A DNA stretch of 46,856 nucleotides. It comes from a virus. The stretch spans positions 1-46,856 of IMG/VR virus record IMGVR_UViG_3300020205_003425; one strand, 5' to 3'. The notes under the pieces were generated by a model. That model had not been told where the DNA came from, searched no databases, and worked only from the letters and a program-made list of their open reading frames with translations. Shown here piece after piece: positions 16,843-29,781 of this stretch. The translations under genes were made by a program, and so were the position numbers. The stretch's first letter is position 1; each line of letters starts with the position of its first letter.

Positions 16843-17979
16843 ATGGCAGTAAATATCCAAGAGCGATCGGGCAATTACCAACTCAGAATCACACATAAAT
16901 TGCTGCCAAAGCAGTTCTTTTTTACATTCAAAACAAGAGTTGAAGCGGCTAACTATGGTGACCAACTTTCGCTGTTACTAGCCAACGGTGTAATCCCGGA
17001 CGAGATGCTCGCAAAAGCTGCCAAGCCATCCAACCCGGCGCTTTCGGTCATCCTCCTGGATTATTTAAAAAAGGCTGCGATCACAGACTCAGATGCAGAG
17101 CTTTTGAAGGTGATTTTTTCTGAAATTGTGGGTCTCAAATACTCAGACATAACCTTCGTATGGGTCGAGGATTACGTCAGGTCGCTCAAGAGCCCTGAGA
17201 AGAACTTGGCACCGGGGACGATCAGAAAGCGCATCGGTGCACTAGGCCGAGTGCTCGATTGGCACATCAACAATACGACCAAGAATGGTGAAACACCTCG
17301 GGCCAATCCATTCAGAATGATGACAAGGGGCTACAGCACATACTCAAAGCAAGATGCCAAAAAGTCAGTCATCAAGCGTGATGTAGTCAGGAATCGCCGT
17401 CTTAGCCCAGAGGAAAACCAGCGCATATTGGCTGTTCTTGCGGGTCATAAGCGTGAAAACCGTGAGCGGCCATACACCGATGACAAAGCGTTCAAATTAC
17501 TTTATGAGTTGATTGTTGATACCGGCCTTCGACTTTTTGAAGCGTATCGGTTGAACGCCAATAGCTTTGACTTCAAGACAAACATCATCAATGTAGAAGG
17601 TTCAAAGGGGCATCGGGGCTTTATCAAACAGCGAGTGGTGCCAATCAAGCATGAGTTGAGAGAGCCGCTGAAGGCTTGGTGTGCGGGGAGGGTGGGGCTG
17701 ATATTTCCCTACTGGAGCGGTGATTTAGAAAACAAGCGTGATGCGACCAACAAGCTCTCAAAACGCTTTACAGGTCTATTTGCCTATGCCAGCGTTGATG
17801 ACTTCACAGAGCATGATTTACGGCATGAGGCAGCTTGCAGGTGGTTTGAATTGCGAAACGAGCGAGGCTGGGTTTTCAGCGAAATTGAAGTGTGCCGGAT
17901 CATGGGTTGGACCGACACGCGAATGGCATTACGCTATGCGTCATTGCGCGGTGAAGATTTAAGCTCTAGGCTTGGGTAG
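16843..17979 (+). CDS. int: Tyrosine-type site-specific integrase
   Basis: The product has 378 residues; the start ATG is preceded by GGAGGG. The N-terminal 180 residues comprise an arm-binding beta segment (NYQLRITHKLLPKQFFFTF) and a helical core-binding domain. The catalytic domain has the family residues: first Arg in DTGLRLFEAYRL (about 229), HDLRHEA with His324, Arg327 and His328, and Tyr365 in MALRYASLRG. The third catalytic His/Trp position is Trp (MGWTDT), a known natural variant. It would recombine the phage at the tRNA-Cys core just upstream. Its end overlaps the convergent HTH gene by 14 bases, so transcription from the two sides may interfere. Confidence 0.95.
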   Translation: MAVNIQERSGNYQLRITHKLLPKQFFFTFKTRVEAANYGDQLSLLLANGVIPDEMLAKAAKPSNPALSVILLDYLKKAAITDSDAELLKVIFSEIVGLKYSDITFVWVEDYVRSLKSPEKNLAPGTIRKRIGALGRVLDWHINNTTKNGETPRANPFRMMTRGYSTYSKQDAKKSVIKRDVVRNRRLSPEENQRILAVLAGHKRENRERPYTDDKAFKLLYELIVDTGLRLFEAYRLNANSFDFKTNIINVEGSKGHRGFIKQRVVPIKHELREPLKAWCAGRVGLIFPYWSGDLENKRDATNKLSKRFTGLFAYASVDDFTEHDLRHEAACRWFELRNERGWVFSEIEVCRIMGWTDTRMALRYASLRGEDLSSRLG

Positions 17980-23411: not shown

Positions 23412-23963
23412 ATGCTGACCTTTACCCAGCTGCGCAAATGGCAGCGAAAAACAATTGAGATTTTGGCGACCAAGCCATATTTGCTTGTCGGTGCTCAACC
23501 CGGCTCTGGCAAGACGGCCACTGTGCTGTCGGCGTTGGCCCAAAAGAAAACCCGGACGTTATTGATCGCACCTTGCATCATCTTGGACCAAGTGTGGTCC
23601 CAAGAAGCGCTTGCTTGGGAGCACACACGACATCTCACTTTTGACATGGCACACCGCTTAAGCGGCAATGGCCGTTCGGGGCTATGGTTTGAAGGTACGG
23701 GCGACATCACAACCTGCACCCCTGACACGCTGGCTAAATTTCTTGATGCGATACATGAACGAAAGATCATCCCTGTCGAGCAAATCGTTGTTGACGAAAG
23801 CCAATTTTTCAAAAACGCCACAGCCGTTCGCACTGCTGCCTTGCACGTCTTGTCTGAGCATGTGCCAACTTGGCTTTTAAGTGGCACGCCCACACCCAAT
23901 GGGACCATCGACTGTTGGTCGCCTGGACGCATCTTGTCAAAACAAGGGGGGTTTTGGCAATGA
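23412..23963 (+). CDS. SNF2-type helicase, N-terminal half (RecA1 domain)
   Basis: The product has 183 residues; the start follows AAGGA. It contains the first helicase lobe: Q-motif-like WQRKTIEIL, Walker A GAQPGSGKT (27-35), TLLIAPCIILDQVWSQEA (motif Ia), TPDTLAKF (Ib), Walker B VVDESQ (128-131, DESQ where most SNF2 proteins have DExH or DEAH) and motif III WLLSGTPTPNG. It stops right where the linker to lobe 2 begins, with a stop codon overlapping the next start as ATGA. In other phages both lobes form one protein of about 450-480 residues; here 183 plus 281 gives 464. A run of six G and four T just before the junction is also a possible slippage or indel point. Each half alone should lack helicase activity. 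Confidence 0.85.
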   Translation: MLTFTQLRKWQRKTIEILATKPYLLVGAQPGSGKTATVLSALAQKKTRTLLIAPCIILDQVWSQEALAWEHTRHLTFDMAHRLSGNGRSGLWFEGTGDITTCTPDTLAKFLDAIHERKIIPVEQIVVDESQFFKNATAVRTAALHVLSEHVPTWLLSGTPTPNGTIDCWSPGRILSKQGGFWQ

Positions 23964-24805
23964 AAGAGTTCTACACGTGGCGTAAAAAGCACTTCAACCG
24001 TGTGTCTGAGTACTCATGGCGGGTCAAAAGCAAGGAGGTCGAGGCTGAAATTCGGGCCGAATTCTCCCAATACGCTTTGGCAATCAAGCTTGAGGATGCG
24101 GTTTCTGGTATTCCCGAGCCGCTTTACAGCGTCTACCCATTTGGATGGGATAAGGATCACTACGAGAGAATCGATTCATTCATTCAGACCAACCGTGTCG
24201 CGCTACCCAAAGGCAAATCACGGGTCGCGACAAACGAGGGGTCGTATTTGGCGATATTGCGACAGCTCACCTCCGGGTTGGCCTATGACAGCGAGTCGCT
24301 TGCTTACGAACTATCCACATCGAGGGCTGATGCGCTTGAAAGTGTGATTGATGATGTGCAAGGGCCAGTATTGGTCTCTGTTTTCTACAAAGCGGAGGTG
24401 GTTGCACTGCGTCGCAGGTTTGGCGCAAGGGCACGAGCGTTTGTTGGTGATACGCCCATTAGTGAGCGCAGCCGTCTTATTCATGCGTGGAACGCTGATG
24501 AGATTCCGATTTTGCTGGCTGCCCCTGCTGCGATGGGTCATGGAATCAATTTACAGCATGGTTCAGCGCGCACCATTGTTTGGCATTCCCACTCCTTTGA
24601 TTGGGCTCAGCGTTCACAGTTCAATGCACGGTTGGTGCGCTCAGGGCAAACCAAAACGGTATCCATCGTTGACTTGGTGGGAGACATAGGGATCGACAGG
24701 GCAGTACTCACGGCTTTGGCAAACAAACAAGCCGGGGAATCAGCAATCATGGAGGTGCTTGATATTCGCCATCGGTTCACGCCAAGGGAGGTGGCTTATG
24801 GCTGA
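23960..24805 (+). CDS. SNF2-type helicase, C-terminal half (RecA2 domain)
   Basis: The product has 281 residues. The ATG at 23960 overlaps the stop of the N-terminal half (ATGA), and the preceding GGGGGG run could serve as ribosome site. FYTWRKKHF is the usual start of the inter-lobe region. Lobe 2 motifs are present: GPVLVSVFYKAEVVALRRRF (motif IV region), AAPAAMGHGINLQHG (motif V, about 187-201) and QFNARLVRSGQ (motif VI with arginine finger, about 220-230). Nothing appears to be missing between the halves. The two products must associate, or be made as one by a -1 frameshift at the G/T run, to form an active translocase. The gene overlaps the polymerase gene by 8 bases (ATGGCTGA). Confidence 0.85.
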   Translation: MKEFYTWRKKHFNRVSEYSWRVKSKEVEAEIRAEFSQYALAIKLEDAVSGIPEPLYSVYPFGWDKDHYERIDSFIQTNRVALPKGKSRVATNEGSYLAILRQLTSGLAYDSESLAYELSTSRADALESVIDDVQGPVLVSVFYKAEVVALRRRFGARARAFVGDTPISERSRLIHAWNADEIPILLAAPAAMGHGINLQHGSARTIVWHSHSFDWAQRSQFNARLVRSGQTKTVSIVDLVGDIGIDRAVLTALANKQAGESAIMEVLDIRHRFTPREVAYG

Positions 24806-26036
24806 GCGCAAGGTTTATGACTTTGAAGTGGCGTGTCAAAGGGCCGTGCTCGGCATACAGGAGCACGGTCAGCCCCCAGAGCATTTGGTAATTGATGCGC
24901 CTATTGATGCCGACACAGCTATCGAAATACACAATCGACTGGGGGACGGGTGTGAAGTCGCGGGGTACAACAACTTTGGTTTTGATACCTATTTGCTCAA
25001 TGCCCTTTTGAATGGTGCTGGGCCACAGTATTTGCACGAGGTCGCCCAGGAAATCATTGGGTTCAGAGGGCCAGCTTGGAAAGTAGCGCAGGCGCACGGG
25101 TTGGGGAAAAGCGGGTTCAATGAACTTGACCTGATGCACTACACACCGAGGGGGCGGTTGAAAGAGTACGAGGGTCGGCTGGGGATGGAGATCAAGGATT
25201 TGCCATTTGATCCATCGGCCCCCATTACCGACGAGATGCTTCCCGCAGTCATCAAATACCTGGAGCATGACCTATATGCCACTGAGAAGCTGCGTCAAGC
25301 GGTAGACGGGGATATTCTGGCCCGCGTTCTTTTGGAAGAGATGTTTGGGGTCGCTGAGCTAACTAAAAAGACAGCGGCAAACGTCGCAGCAGCCATCATC
25401 GTTGCCGAATACAGCCGAGAAATGCCAGGGGTCGATTTGCGCGATATGAAGGCGGCATCGAGCCGTATGCGCAATTGCTCCTTTGATTTCTACGTTCCAG
25501 ACTGGGTGCGCAAGGGTATTGCTGGGACGATTGCGCAAGGGATCGCCGATGCTATTGACGGGACTGAATTCAAAATTGTCGATGGGGTCAGACAGCCACC
25601 TTCGCGCGAATGGCCTGAACTGATCACTTTGTCGGATGATGATTGTCTCGAGGCGAATTTTGGGTTGGGTGGCATCCACACCAAAGACGAGGCTTGTAAC
25701 TATGCGGCGATTAGTTTTGACGTTGCAAGCCTGTACCCACACATCATCATGCATGAGGACTGTGCTCCAACTCATTTGGATGCCAGCATCTTCCATGAAA
25801 TATACGGTCGTCTGATCAAGCGTCGGCTGGAGGCCAAAAGAGCCTCTGACAAGCCAACATCAAACGCACTGAAGCTGGTTTTGAACAGTTGCTTTGGGGC
25901 ATACAACTTCCCCTTTTCGCCGTTGTACAGCCTAGACGCCTTCTTATCCATCACGGTTTCGGGTCAGCTTTGTTTGCTGGCCTTGGCTGACCGAATGAAA
26001 CAAACACAAAAACAAGAGGTAATTGAGCATGTTTGA
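24798..26036 (+). CDS. Family B DNA polymerase, N-terminal part (exonuclease, motifs A and B)
   Basis: The product has 412 residues from ATG 24798. The 3'-5' exonuclease residues are present: YDFE (Asp8, Glu10), YNNFGFD (Asn59 to Asp63) and YLEHD (Tyr154, Asp158). The polymerase palm carries motif A, SFDVASLYPHI (Asp308), and motif B, ALKLVLNSCFGAYNF (Lys359, Asn363, Gly367). It then ends shortly after GQLCLLALADRM, before motif C. Motif C and the thumb are encoded at the start of the next gene. The exonuclease resembles the short type found in other phage B polymerases (NELDLMHYTPRGRLKEYEGRLG). The split may be genuine or may require a +1 shift; the 8-base overlap and a ribosome site for the second gene favour two proteins. 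Confidence 0.85.
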   Translation: MAERKVYDFEVACQRAVLGIQEHGQPPEHLVIDAPIDADTAIEIHNRLGDGCEVAGYNNFGFDTYLLNALLNGAGPQYLHEVAQEIIGFRGPAWKVAQAHGLGKSGFNELDLMHYTPRGRLKEYEGRLGMEIKDLPFDPSAPITDEMLPAVIKYLEHDLYATEKLRQAVDGDILARVLLEEMFGVAELTKKTAANVAAAIIVAEYSREMPGVDLRDMKAASSRMRNCSFDFYVPDWVRKGIAGTIAQGIADAIDGTEFKIVDGVRQPPSREWPELITLSDDDCLEANFGLGGIHTKDEACNYAAISFDVASLYPHIIMHEDCAPTHLDASIFHEIYGRLIKRRLEAKRASDKPTSNALKLVLNSCFGAYNFPFSPLYSLDAFLSITVSGQLCLLALADRMKQTQKQEVIEHV

Positions 26037-29000
26037 TACAAAACTGACGGACCGAACACGGGTTGTGTCTTTGAATACTGACAGTATTTCCATTCAAGTG
26101 CAGCGTGGAGATGAGGAGCGTGTCGCCCGTGTCATTGGCGAGTGGGAGGAGACATTCAATTTTGAAATGGAACGCTTGGATGTGTTGGAGCACAGGGCGC
26201 TCAACATCAACAGCTACATCGAAGTAGTCCAAGAGGGTGGCGGTTCGCCTGTTATCAAAAGCAAGGGCCTGCTATCACACGACCCAGGTATCAATTCAAA
26301 CCATAACCAGCTAATCGTCTCTCAGGCCATTGGGCAGTGGATGCTGGATGGGACACCTGTGGAGCAATTCATTTTGGAAGCGGCGAAGCAGCAAGACATT
26401 TTGAAGTTCACAGAAATGCGAACTGCACCTTCAAGCAATATTCGGTACGGCAATGAGCCCATTGGCAGGATTATTCGCGTTTACCGGTCAACCCGGCAAG
26501 ACCTGCCCAAACTTACCAAGGACGCGACTGGTGCGGCCTCAGAGCAACAATTTGAACCTGGGTTTGCATACTTGCCTGGGGTTGCTTGGCCCGAAGATGA
26601 TGATTTGGATGTGCAGTGGTACATCTTGCAAGCCAAATTGATTTTGGCCCAGACTTCCACACCGTATAGCCCACAGCACAACAAGCTTGCAAAACAGCTT
26701 TCAAATTTAGGTTTGCAGGTGGCAGGTGTGGGTGGAGCGGCCACTGTTCTCACTGATGGGGCTATCAACGAAGAGGCAATTGCCAGGGGTACTGCAAAAA
26801 ATCCACGTAACTATTCGGGTGACCGAGGGCTGGCTGTCAATATTGGCAAAAGCACTGGGCTGATTTGTATCGACCCGGGGCATCTCTCGCACGACTCCTT
26901 GGTGTTGAGCTTTGGTTTTTCTGATCAGAATGTAGTTGGCGAAATACACAACAAATCGAATATCGACAAAGCCAAGCAACGAGAGTTAAAAAAAGCAGGG
27001 GTAGAGGTCAACGAAAAGGGCTATGTAAAGGTCTACGACCAGCGTGACGGCCTTGTGCCGCTGCATATGGGTTCGGCTGTAGAAGCGGTTCAAGAGAGGT
27101 CCTTGTCCTTGGGGGGTTCTGAAGCTGAACTTGCTTCAAACGATGATTTCTTGCAGGTCATGTTCGGACCATCAATTGACAGTTGTTTTGTCTGCTCAAA
27201 CACAACACCGCCAGATTCTGAGGATGAGTTTGCCAAGGCTGGTATGTGGATTGGTGGGCCCTTGCAGTACTCGCGGGACTTGTACAAAGACCCGCAACGC
27301 CAAAACTACATCTGTGTGAGCACCTTCAAAACGGACTCGGAAGGGGTTTATTACCGGCAAGGCGAATTTTTTGATGCGTTGCACTTTATTGTTTTGGATG
27401 ATATTGGATCGAAAGTTGGCGTTGACCCAAGAACCTTGGGGTTTGGTGAGCCGACCTTCATCAATGAGACATCACCAGGGAACTTCCAGTGGTATTACAA
27501 GCTAAAAGAGCCAGTTCGTGACCTGTCGGTAGCCAGTTTTCTGACAAAGCAAGTTTTGGCGACGCCGGTTCAGGGCTTTTTGATGACCGATCAGGGGGCA
27601 AAGGGGATCACAAGGCTTTGCAAGTTGCCATTTGGGCGAAATCTCAAGTTGTCGCTTGGCAAGGTTTGGCAAAACCGACCTACATCTTGGACGCCTAAAA
27701 CCGAATACACCGCGCAAGAGATTGCGGGTTGGTTTGGGTTGTCATTGGATTCTGTTCCGCACATCAGTGCGGGGCCTGCGGCTACGGCTGAAGCTGCCGG
27801 TGACCACCCTCTGATACTTGCCTTGCATGCTGCAGGGCTTTTATTGTCAGCCCAGCAAAAGGGCTCGGGGTGGTGGGACATGCTTTGCCACAACCGGGGT
27901 TCACACAGTACAGGTGCTGGTGTTGATTCAGGGACAGCCGTCAAGATTAGGCAAGACGGCTCTTGGACATTCAGGTGTCAGCATGGTCATTGTGCAGATT
28001 TAAAACCCCGAGACTTGTACAGGCATCTGTCTGAGCAGGGGTTTGTGCCAACACCCCCGCAGCACAAAATCTACATCAAGCGAATTGATCCTGCCGAAAT
28101 ATTTGATTTGGCCTCTTTTGCTGAAGATGACTTTTCATTTTTGGACCCGGACGATGGTGGGGCCGGTGAGGAGGTGGATTATCCCGATCCTGAAATCGGT
28201 GGAGGCGGTGCTGGCATTCCTATCTCAGCCGGTGGGTTGGGATCGGGAGGGGGGAAACCATGCATTTATATTGACCCGGGCCATTTGCCAAGGATGGTTC
28301 ATGAATGTGCGGAAATTCTTAACGATGTCGTTTACAAGCGTGGCATTTACTTGGTGCGCATCGGTCAAGGTTGTGAGTTGGTGGATGGGCTATCAAGAAT
28401 CGGAACACAACCCATAGTGATGCCGGTGACAAGAGCTTGGCTGGTTAGAGAGCTGACACAACGGGCTACTTTTATGCGGTGGAATGTAAAAGCCAACGAC
28501 TACAAGGTCTGTGACTGCCCTCAAAACATTGCAATGACGCTTGAGACGGGAACAGATGACTACACGTTTAGGCCGCTCACAGCCTTAGCTAACGCACCAT
28601 TCCTACGCGTAGACGGCTCTATTTGCGATAGCCCCGGATACGACGCAGACACGGGCATTTATTACGCCCCGAGCCTTGTTTTCCCATCGATCAGTGCGAA
28701 CCCCTCTTGGCAAGAAGCCAGGGACGCACTGGATTTGATAAGTGAATTGGTTAAACAGTTCCCGTTTGCCAACGAGGTCTCGAGGTCTGTGTTCTTGTCT
28801 GATGTATTGACTTCGATTGCTAGACCCACATTACCCAAGTCACCGGTTATTTTGTACAACGCCACGATGGCTGGTTCAGGCAAGACGCTGATGGCTTCTG
28901 TCGCTAATTTAATTGCTTACGGGCATGCAACGACGCACCCTTGGCCTGGGGTGAATGAAGAGGAGTTGAAAAAGGTTTTCACATCTGTGTTGCTGGCTGG

Positions 29001-29781
29001 TGACCCGGTGGTTGTCTTCGATAACTTGCCAAATGGGGCAATGATTAAGAGCGCAGCGTTGTCACAGTTTGCAACTTCAGATGATTACGCCGATCGAAAG
29101 TTGGGGGTTTCTGAGCGGGTTAAGTTTCGCAACAGGACTCGTGTTGTTTTGACTGGTAACAACATAACGCTTGCAAGCGACAACGCACGACGAACACTGG
29201 TTTGTGATTTGCAGCTTGAGGTTGAATCCATCAAAGACCGGGTCGTTGATTTTGAACACCCCAGTTTGGCGTCCCACATCAAACAAAACCGACCCCTATA
29301 CATATCTGCGGCTTTAACAGTCTTGAAAGCGTATGCCATGCATAGCGCCCCATTGATGCTGTCACCTCTTGATAGCTTTGAGGATTGGTCTTGGAGGGTC
29401 AGAGAAGCATTGGTGTGGCTGGGGGAAGAAGACCCTGTTGCGGCCATCCAATATGAGAACGATGGGTCGGGGGAAATTGCAATGGTTTTTGCAACGATTC
29501 AGGACTTGGCAAATATCAAGCAAGCCCACAGCAAAGAAAAAGATTTCAAGTCCAGTGATTTAGCCAACTGGGTCGCTTCAAACATGGCGCTGCGCGATGC
29601 CTTGGAGCAGGCTGGTTGTACCGATATCACCAGTTCAGGGAAGTTGGGATTTTGGCTGAGGGCACATAAAAACCGAATTGCTGGTGGTTTGAAGTTGATT
29701 TCCAAACAAATGCATGGCGGTCGAGAACCGGCGCGCTGGAGCTTGATTTCATCAATCAACGGAAAAAACAAGGATTTTTAG
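26029..29781 (+). CDS. Fusion: PolB motif C and thumb, primase, Zn finger, helicase
   Basis: The product has 1250 residues. ATG 26029 lies inside the previous gene's end (overlap ATGTTTGA) and is preceded by AAGAGGT. Residues 1-230 complete the polymerase: motif C VVSLNTDSISI (Asn16-Thr-Asp18; family consensus has Asp first) and a thumb region. About 440-590 resembles an archaeo-eukaryotic-type RepB primase (HFIVLDDIGSK, NETSPGNFQWYYKL, GITRLCKLPFGRN). About 615-660 is a putative zinc finger (LCHNRG then FRCQHGHC). About 855-880 has FLRVDGSICDSPGYDADTGIYY, seen in primase-helicases of phages and plasmids. Walker A MAGSGKTL (about 946-953), VVFDNLP and VVLTGNN form a ring-helicase ATPase. Primer synthesis, unwinding and polymerase C-terminus on one chain is unusual. 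I recognise no stand-alone primase or replicative helicase elsewhere. Confidence 0.8.
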   Translation: MFDTKLTDRTRVVSLNTDSISIQVQRGDEERVARVIGEWEETFNFEMERLDVLEHRALNINSYIEVVQEGGGSPVIKSKGLLSHDPGINSNHNQLIVSQAIGQWMLDGTPVEQFILEAAKQQDILKFTEMRTAPSSNIRYGNEPIGRIIRVYRSTRQDLPKLTKDATGAASEQQFEPGFAYLPGVAWPEDDDLDVQWYILQAKLILAQTSTPYSPQHNKLAKQLSNLGLQVAGVGGAATVLTDGAINEEAIARGTAKNPRNYSGDRGLAVNIGKSTGLICIDPGHLSHDSLVLSFGFSDQNVVGEIHNKSNIDKAKQRELKKAGVEVNEKGYVKVYDQRDGLVPLHMGSAVEAVQERSLSLGGSEAELASNDDFLQVMFGPSIDSCFVCSNTTPPDSEDEFAKAGMWIGGPLQYSRDLYKDPQRQNYICVSTFKTDSEGVYYRQGEFFDALHFIVLDDIGSKVGVDPRTLGFGEPTFINETSPGNFQWYYKLKEPVRDLSVASFLTKQVLATPVQGFLMTDQGAKGITRLCKLPFGRNLKLSLGKVWQNRPTSWTPKTEYTAQEIAGWFGLSLDSVPHISAGPAATAEAAGDHPLILALHAAGLLLSAQQKGSGWWDMLCHNRGSHSTGAGVDSGTAVKIRQDGSWTFRCQHGHCADLKPRDLYRHLSEQGFVPTPPQHKIYIKRIDPAEIFDLASFAEDDFSFLDPDDGGAGEEVDYPDPEIGGGGAGIPISAGGLGSGGGKPCIYIDPGHLPRMVHECAEILNDVVYKRGIYLVRIGQGCELVDGLSRIGTQPIVMPVTRAWLVRELTQRATFMRWNVKANDYKVCDCPQNIAMTLETGTDDYTFRPLTALANAPFLRVDGSICDSPGYDADTGIYYAPSLVFPSISANPSWQEARDALDLISELVKQFPFANEVSRSVFLSDVLTSIARPTLPKSPVILYNATMAGSGKTLMASVANLIAYGHATTHPWPGVNEEELKKVFTSVLLAGDPVVVFDNLPNGAMIKSAALSQFATSDDYADRKLGVSERVKFRNRTRVVLTGNNITLASDNARRTLVCDLQLEVESIKDRVVDFEHPSLASHIKQNRPLYISAALTVLKAYAMHSAPLMLSPLDSFEDWSWRVREALVWLGEEDPVAAIQYENDGSGEIAMVFATIQDLANIKQAHSKEKDFKSSDLANWVASNMALRDALEQAGCTDITSSGKLGFWLRAHKNRIAGGLKLISKQMHGGREPARWSLISSINGKNKDF

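Follow-up and report, generated by a model that had tools for sequence, protein, structure and literature searches.

The window analysed here is the whole 46,856-nucleotide (nt) stretch of the IMG/VR virus record IMGVR_UViG_3300020205_003425, and our subject is a pair of overlapping plus-strand genes in it, A and B, between which the parts of a family B DNA polymerase (PolB) are divided. Gene A (24798..26036, from the ATG at 24798 to the stop at 26036) encodes 412 amino acids (aa). Reading of its motifs identified ExoI (YDFE, D8/E10), ExoII (N58, D63) and ExoIII (Y154, D158) of the exonuclease, followed by motif A (D308 in DVASLYP) and motif B (K359 in KLVLNSCFG, together with N363); the chain closes with the fingers, motif B and then a palm helix and a disordered tail. 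Gene B (26029..29781, from the ATG at 26029 to the stop at 29781) encodes 1250 aa and opens with the C-terminal part of the polymerase (residues 1-208, 26029..26652), which carries motif C, KSKG (77-80) and the thumb. Motif C, NTDS (D18, within RVVSLNTDSI, 26074..26085), was placed by motif reading and by alignment with nine unsplit phage polymerases, in which the thumb of B extends as far as their usual C-terminal helix. An earlier note on this DNA had described the same layout, with exonuclease and motifs A and B on one chain and motif C and thumb at the head of the next, and our motif assignments and profile matches agree with it.

The two chains are complementary halves of one protein family, phrog_1252, and their pairing is thus not due to chance. 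In profile searches, A covers positions 90-453 of the 663 positions of this family (E 7e-65) and B covers 445-658 (E 6e-27); a full match comprising exonuclease, palm, fingers and thumb is reached only by both chains together. The family is divided between two chains in the same way in two of the relatives introduced below, L016 and L042. Across 60 split and unsplit sequences, D63, Y154, D158, D308, K359, N363 and N426-T427-D428 (fused numbering) are invariant, and D8, E10 and N58 are kept in more than 90%. Ratios of non-synonymous to synonymous substitution (dN/dS) among L001, L016 and L018 are approximately 0.07-0.13 for A and 0.08-0.10 for the PolB part of B. Judged by these alignments, the polymerase catalytic motifs of both chains are intact and under purifying selection.

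The asparagine in motif C had been regarded as a change and a further oddity. We reject this view: every one of the 80 unsplit relatives examined has NTDG, as do nine annotated phage polymerases, and the asparagine is therefore the norm of the family rather than an innovation. Active PolBs that lack the first aspartate of motif C are on record (PMC7544198).

A split in the same loop is present in six independently sequenced genomes: the window, the IMG/VR contigs L001, L042 and L129, a prophage of the isolate Limnohabitans radicicola JUR4 (L016) and a prophage in a metagenome-assembled genome (MAG) of Comamonadaceae (L018). Members of this clade share about 58-70% aa identity with the window (68% for L001), and A and B are adjacent, overlapping and split in each of the five close relatives whose junction can be read; a further contig, L017, contains B and stops before A. 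Outside the clade the picture is different. Among the best 80 IMG/VR matches to the polymerase family, 79 are single unfused chains and only L042 is both split and fused; L015 is likewise a single chain, which brings the unfused relatives on virus contigs to 80, every one of them unsplit. Beyond the clade, the relatives of the primase-helicase have no polymerase part. Distant unsplit homologues do have motif C inside the one chain, the form that the earlier note had named as a possible refutation, whereas all close relatives are split alike. Both of the outcomes for which that note had suggested searching related phages were thus found, and the split is best seen as a derived trait of the clade and not as an error. 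As far as these comparisons go, the simplest reading of the fusion is as a trait derived in a single small phage clade. Where known, the hosts are betaproteobacteria, and a search of 401 Limnohabitans-family genomes found the arrangement only in that of L016, with no further member.

Structures of A and B were predicted with AlphaFold2, each chain being folded separately. The model of A has a mean predicted local distance difference test (pLDDT) score of 90.4; its last helix spans residues 379-403, and residues 408-412, the only disordered ones, have pLDDT below 50. In the model of B, residues 1-5 are also below 50, and strands 11-15 and 20-23 flank motif C. These low-confidence chain ends and the elements beside them place the cut in the loop that leads from a palm helix to the strand of motif C. 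Foldseek searches of the Protein Data Bank with the model of A returned B-family polymerases as all of the top matches (E 1.7e-6, prob 1.00), and the PolB part of B matched the C-terminal part of a crAss-like DNA polymerase in a viral fold library (TMt 0.73). Short crAss-like matches labelled 'DNA polymerase' in that library looked like free PolB C-terminal halves; they were not counted, since introns and stop-codon reassignment are reported to interrupt the PolBs of this group (PMC7886860) and cr10_1 is a single chain.

Downstream of the thumb, B continues through a connecting region (residues 209-370, 26653..27138) that had no match in the Pfam search. It is the fastest evolving part of B, yet conserved, and residues 271-350 are confidently folded in the model (pLDDT about 89-95). 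Next comes a predicted archaeo-eukaryotic primase (AEP) of the RepB type (residues 371-560, 27139..27708), assigned from phrog_4861, Foldseek and its motifs LDDIG (D457, D458), ETSPGNxQ (480-487) and TDQG...R (D521, R529). B misses the Pfam RepB_primase cut-off (17.1 versus 24.3 bits, E 0.0051), where the stand-alone homologue L019 scores 22.1 bits; the match to the DNA primase family phrog_4861 (E 5e-9) supports the B primase as a distant relative of the RepB type. DNA primase families align at residues of about 403-541, and the model of B matches the AEP of the S-2L PrimPol (6zp9, E 2.5e-5, prob 1.00) and RepB' (3h20/3h25, prob 1.00). D457, D458, D521 and R529 are invariant across mobile-element primases in an 11-sequence alignment, and the modelled fold indicates that B carries an AEP of the RepB type, a predicted primase. 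In the same alignment C620, H626, C650 and H652, with H654 and C655, are invariant columns (27841..28038), which point to a probable metal-binding, zinc-like site.

The remainder of B is a predicted DUF5906/superfamily 3 (SF3)-type helicase (residues 740-1241, 28246..29751), recognised by profiles and motifs. Its Walker A (GSGKT, 949-953), Walker B (VVVFDN, 994-999), sensor (TGNN, 1042) and arginine (NARR, 1052) motifs are all present and conserved in the alignment of relatives. In profile searches, phrog_29234 matches the helicase region with E 3e-80, the polymerase/primase family phrog_19930 matches B with E 2e-30, and primase-helicase families align at residues 737-1241. The Pfam DUF5906 cut-off is missed (16.8 versus 27.6 bits, E 0.011; L016 scores 19.9 bits). 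The order of PolB C-terminal part, AEP primase, zinc-like site and SF3-type helicase that had been proposed from the sequence is thus borne out by profiles, folds and motifs, with the Pfam matches below threshold. Within B, at window positions 27076-27126 (residues of about 350-366), four members have candidate internal starts with Shine-Dalgarno-like sequence, close to the point at which the stand-alone L019 primase-helicase starts. These candidates could yield a free primase-helicase and are offered only as a lead.

The start of B and the stop of A share 8 bases on the plus strand, ATGTTTGA (26029..26036), as the earlier note had said. An ATGTTTRA overlap is common to the window, L001, L016 and L018, and 11-nt overlaps of different sequence occur in L042 (ATGGCACATGA) and L129 (ATGAGCCATGA). 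In all members B is read in the +1 frame relative to A, and an ATG in B's frame stands at every junction. In the window a moderate Shine-Dalgarno-like element, AGAGG (26014..26018, plus strand), precedes the ATG of B by approximately 9 nt, and the ribosome site has a duplex energy of -7.6 kcal/mol, within the top 8% of random sites; the element is not conserved in L001, L016 or L018. B thus has a ribosome site of its own in the window, as had been claimed, at only moderate strength. The site of A is strong in the window, L001, L016 and L018, at about -14 to -17 kcal/mol; in L042 it is -8.4. From a strong site for A in most members, a moderate or weak one for B and overlapping codons, we infer that termination-reinitiation coupling suits the junction better than either independent initiation or frameshifting at a conserved site would. 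The landmarks of motifs B and C lie 57 residues apart in five members versus 40 in nearly all unsplit relatives, corresponding to an extra 43-46 nt of length 3n+1 in these five; in L129, A carries a longer tail. The additional residues fall within the low-confidence ends of the two predicted chains, and because of them a one-base correction would not restore the unsplit sequence.

With a split conserved throughout the clade, complementary profile coverage, intact motifs, predicted folds and overlapping codons, we consider it likely that A and B constitute one replicative PolB made as two polypeptides, the second of which is fused to a primase-helicase. Ribosomes finishing A would re-initiate at the overlapping ATG, so that B would be made beside new A. 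The two chains would fold into one palm, in which D308 of A and D18 of B would hold the catalytic metals, and the chain break would lie in an exposed loop, with the palm helix on one side and the strand of motif C on the other. As the split precedes motif C, two chains are needed for one active site, in agreement with the earlier note, and their assembly is the part that we infer. Given that the thumb of B runs on into the AEP primase and SF3-type helicase, the polymerase with its proofreading exonuclease would travel in one assembly with the primase and the fork helicase, probably on the helicase ring. Several points weigh against this reading. The ribosome site of B is weak or absent in L001 (-3.3 kcal/mol), L016 (-0.9) and L018 (-3.3), and in view of such weak sites in several relatives the translational coupling of B to A is assumed. 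Compared with solved polymerases, A has modest TM-scores (0.34-0.51, query-normalised), the whole model of B is modest as well (pTM 0.49) and does not fix the placement of its domains, and the assignment of the helicase to the SF3 type comes from sequence, not fold.

Four other explanations were weighed against this evidence. A programmed +1 frameshift would yield a single PolB-primase-helicase of approximately 1660 residues, with A as a by-product. It would account for the +1 frame of B in all members and for the GTTTRA kept at the A stop in four, a sequence that we take to recall loosely the prfB +1 site. However, ACATGA in L042 and CCATGA in L129 replace GTTTRA at shifted overlaps, every junction has an ATG in frame, and the Shine-Dalgarno-like element of the window, 9-10 nt away, has the spacing of initiation and not of frameshifting. 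The junction DNA is not conserved, which makes a programmed frameshift very unlikely. A removable intein or self-splicing intron that joins A and B has precedents in phage PolB genes (MIJ3, PMC6892783; crAss-like phages, PMC7886860). Here, however, the 43-46 extra nt of five members are far too short and the A stop and B start overlap, and we give the idea practically no weight.

It is also conceivable, albeit improbable, that no polymerase is reconstituted; A would then be an exonuclease, and B a primase-helicase whose PolB part is structural or binds DNA. The existence of primase-helicases without PolB in L019 and L122 is in keeping with this. On the other hand, the polymerase motifs of both chains are under purifying selection, the two genes adjoin and overlap wherever the junction can be read, and the replication region showed no further polymerase, although the scan did not take in the whole window. 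The last explanation is a frameshift introduced by sequencing or assembly, or a pseudogene in decay. A frameshift-prone contig was suspected initially, because the adjoining SNF2-like gene likewise occupies two frames. The relatives exclude this: the polymerase and SNF2 splits both recur in L001, L016, L018, L042 and L129, and a split recurring in independent genomes is not an error. Together with the low dN/dS and the junction insert, the five relatives dispose of the missing or extra base near 26000-26036 that the earlier note had named as a possible refutation; for the clade, this explanation is refuted by six independent genomes, and the chance left to it is negligible.

The SNF2/SF2-like helicase gene in question lies upstream of A, at window positions 23412-23963 and 23960-24805 with an ATGA overlap, and is cut between its two helicase lobes in the window and in all five of these relatives. 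The window also encodes a terminase, a major head protein and an integrase (phrog_1, 16843-17979). The integrase indicates that the phage is probably temperate, in keeping with its prophage relatives.

The ingredients of this arrangement are known separately elsewhere; it is their combination and the position of the cut that had no counterpart in our searches. No fusion of the kind had been known to the earlier note, and a helicase-PrimPol-PolB fusion is in fact published: HelPrimPolB joins an SF3 helicase, a PrimPol and PolB in one chain (Kazlauskas et al. 2020, PMC7544198). The physical connection of PolB to an SF3 helicase and PrimPol is alike, whereas HelPrimPolB is unsplit and runs in the opposite order, helicase-PrimPol-PolB; here the N-terminal part of PolB is separate, and the C-terminal part is followed by primase and helicase. 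The comparison was made with Gordonia phage Gravy gp61, which matches phrog_4210 at 1-1296 and has its DUF5906 helicase at 182-295, whereas the PolB motifs, with KTDS as motif C, start only at about 930. Only the exonuclease part of A matches phrog_4210 (positions 763-907 of 1304, E 4e-10), and A and B depart from HelPrimPolB in domain order, in being two chains and in lacking a full-length phrog_4210 match.

Split PolBs offer the other comparison. The halves gp43A/43B of Aeromonas phage 25 are reported to co-purify and to be active (PMC2988022). As in phages 44RR2 and 25, one PolB comes from two adjacent genes, A and B. The gp43 of 44RR2 breaks after motif A, at about residues 500-512 of T4, and has motif B on the second chain, whereas the present cut is between motifs B and C; gp43A and gp43B are without a primase-helicase fusion, and intercistronic sequence separates their genes. 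The split PolB of Methanothermobacter thermautotrophicus is reportedly also cut before motif C. The enzyme consists of two polypeptides (Kelman et al. 1999; PMC7776575) and belongs to another subfamily, and no fusion to a primase or helicase is reported for it in the literature consulted. The nearest polymerase relatives of A and of the PolB part of B are phrog_1252 phage polymerases such as those of Acidovorax phage ACPWH and Vibrio phage LP.1 (25-30% identity), which have the same NTD motif C and similar neighbours (DUF2800 exonuclease, single-stranded DNA-binding protein, SNF2); they are single unfused chains of about 560-730 aa, unlike the two-polypeptide A/B. In another Vibrio phage, 1.185.O (L005, 22-239), CRISPR spacers are annotated over a hypothetical protein gene on the opposite strand. 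No split PolB fused to a primase-helicase was found in the literature searched, most subscription journals being outside its coverage, and nothing else in the sequences and literature searched unites a cut between motifs B and C, a C-terminal part fused to a primase-helicase and overlapping genes.

The primase-helicase moiety has stand-alone counterparts that align with B residues of approximately 368-1248, namely L019 (67% identity) and Legionella adelaidensis WP_162261887.1 (about 31%). They have no polymerase part and are shorter, at most 917 aa in L019 and 826 aa in Legionella. The L019 gene (6012-10643) lies beside an integrase on a contig labelled as an Akkermansia MAG, whose other genes look betaproteobacterial. 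It looks like a minimal integrated element, a satellite or a decayed prophage, and the label looks like contamination; around it there were no attachment-site repeats of at least 14 bases. On a Legionella adelaidensis plasmid (L122, 2476-8412), an integrase, an AlpA-like regulator and a RepB primase-helicase form an island that is probably an integrated mobile element. Primase-helicases without PolB are also present in many viral contigs. In many viral contigs (L142-L205), open reading frames that measure about 310-350 aa from stop to stop carry the AEP motif ETSPGN but lack a helicase, and such a short RepB-like primase form is apparently common in viral contigs. As to origin, an out-of-frame change at the loop probably separated the C-terminal part of the polymerase, which would also have joined a RepB primase-helicase of the stand-alone mobile-element kind.

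The split may itself have a function, a suggestion that we make tentatively and consider rather doubtful. The active site would be completed only on a chain belonging to the helicase ring, so that polymerisation would be confined to assembled forks; a single hexamer could bear several polymerase halves, which would draw A from a larger pool, A having the stronger ribosome site. If true, the helicase-primase of this replisome would itself license catalysis.

Most of the replication machine of this phage is packed into two overlapping genes, which encode an apparent natural heterodimeric polymerase cut between its catalytic motifs and hard-wired to a primase and a helicase. The arrangement also occurs in a prophage of a cultivated bacterium, Limnohabitans radicicola. 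It would serve as a compact model for the coordination of polymerase, primase and helicase at the fork, and it indicates a site at which PolB naturally tolerates a cut, which is useful for split-enzyme work. Taken with HelPrimPolB, it suggests that fusions of PolB, PrimPol and SF3 helicase evolved more than once, in different orders.

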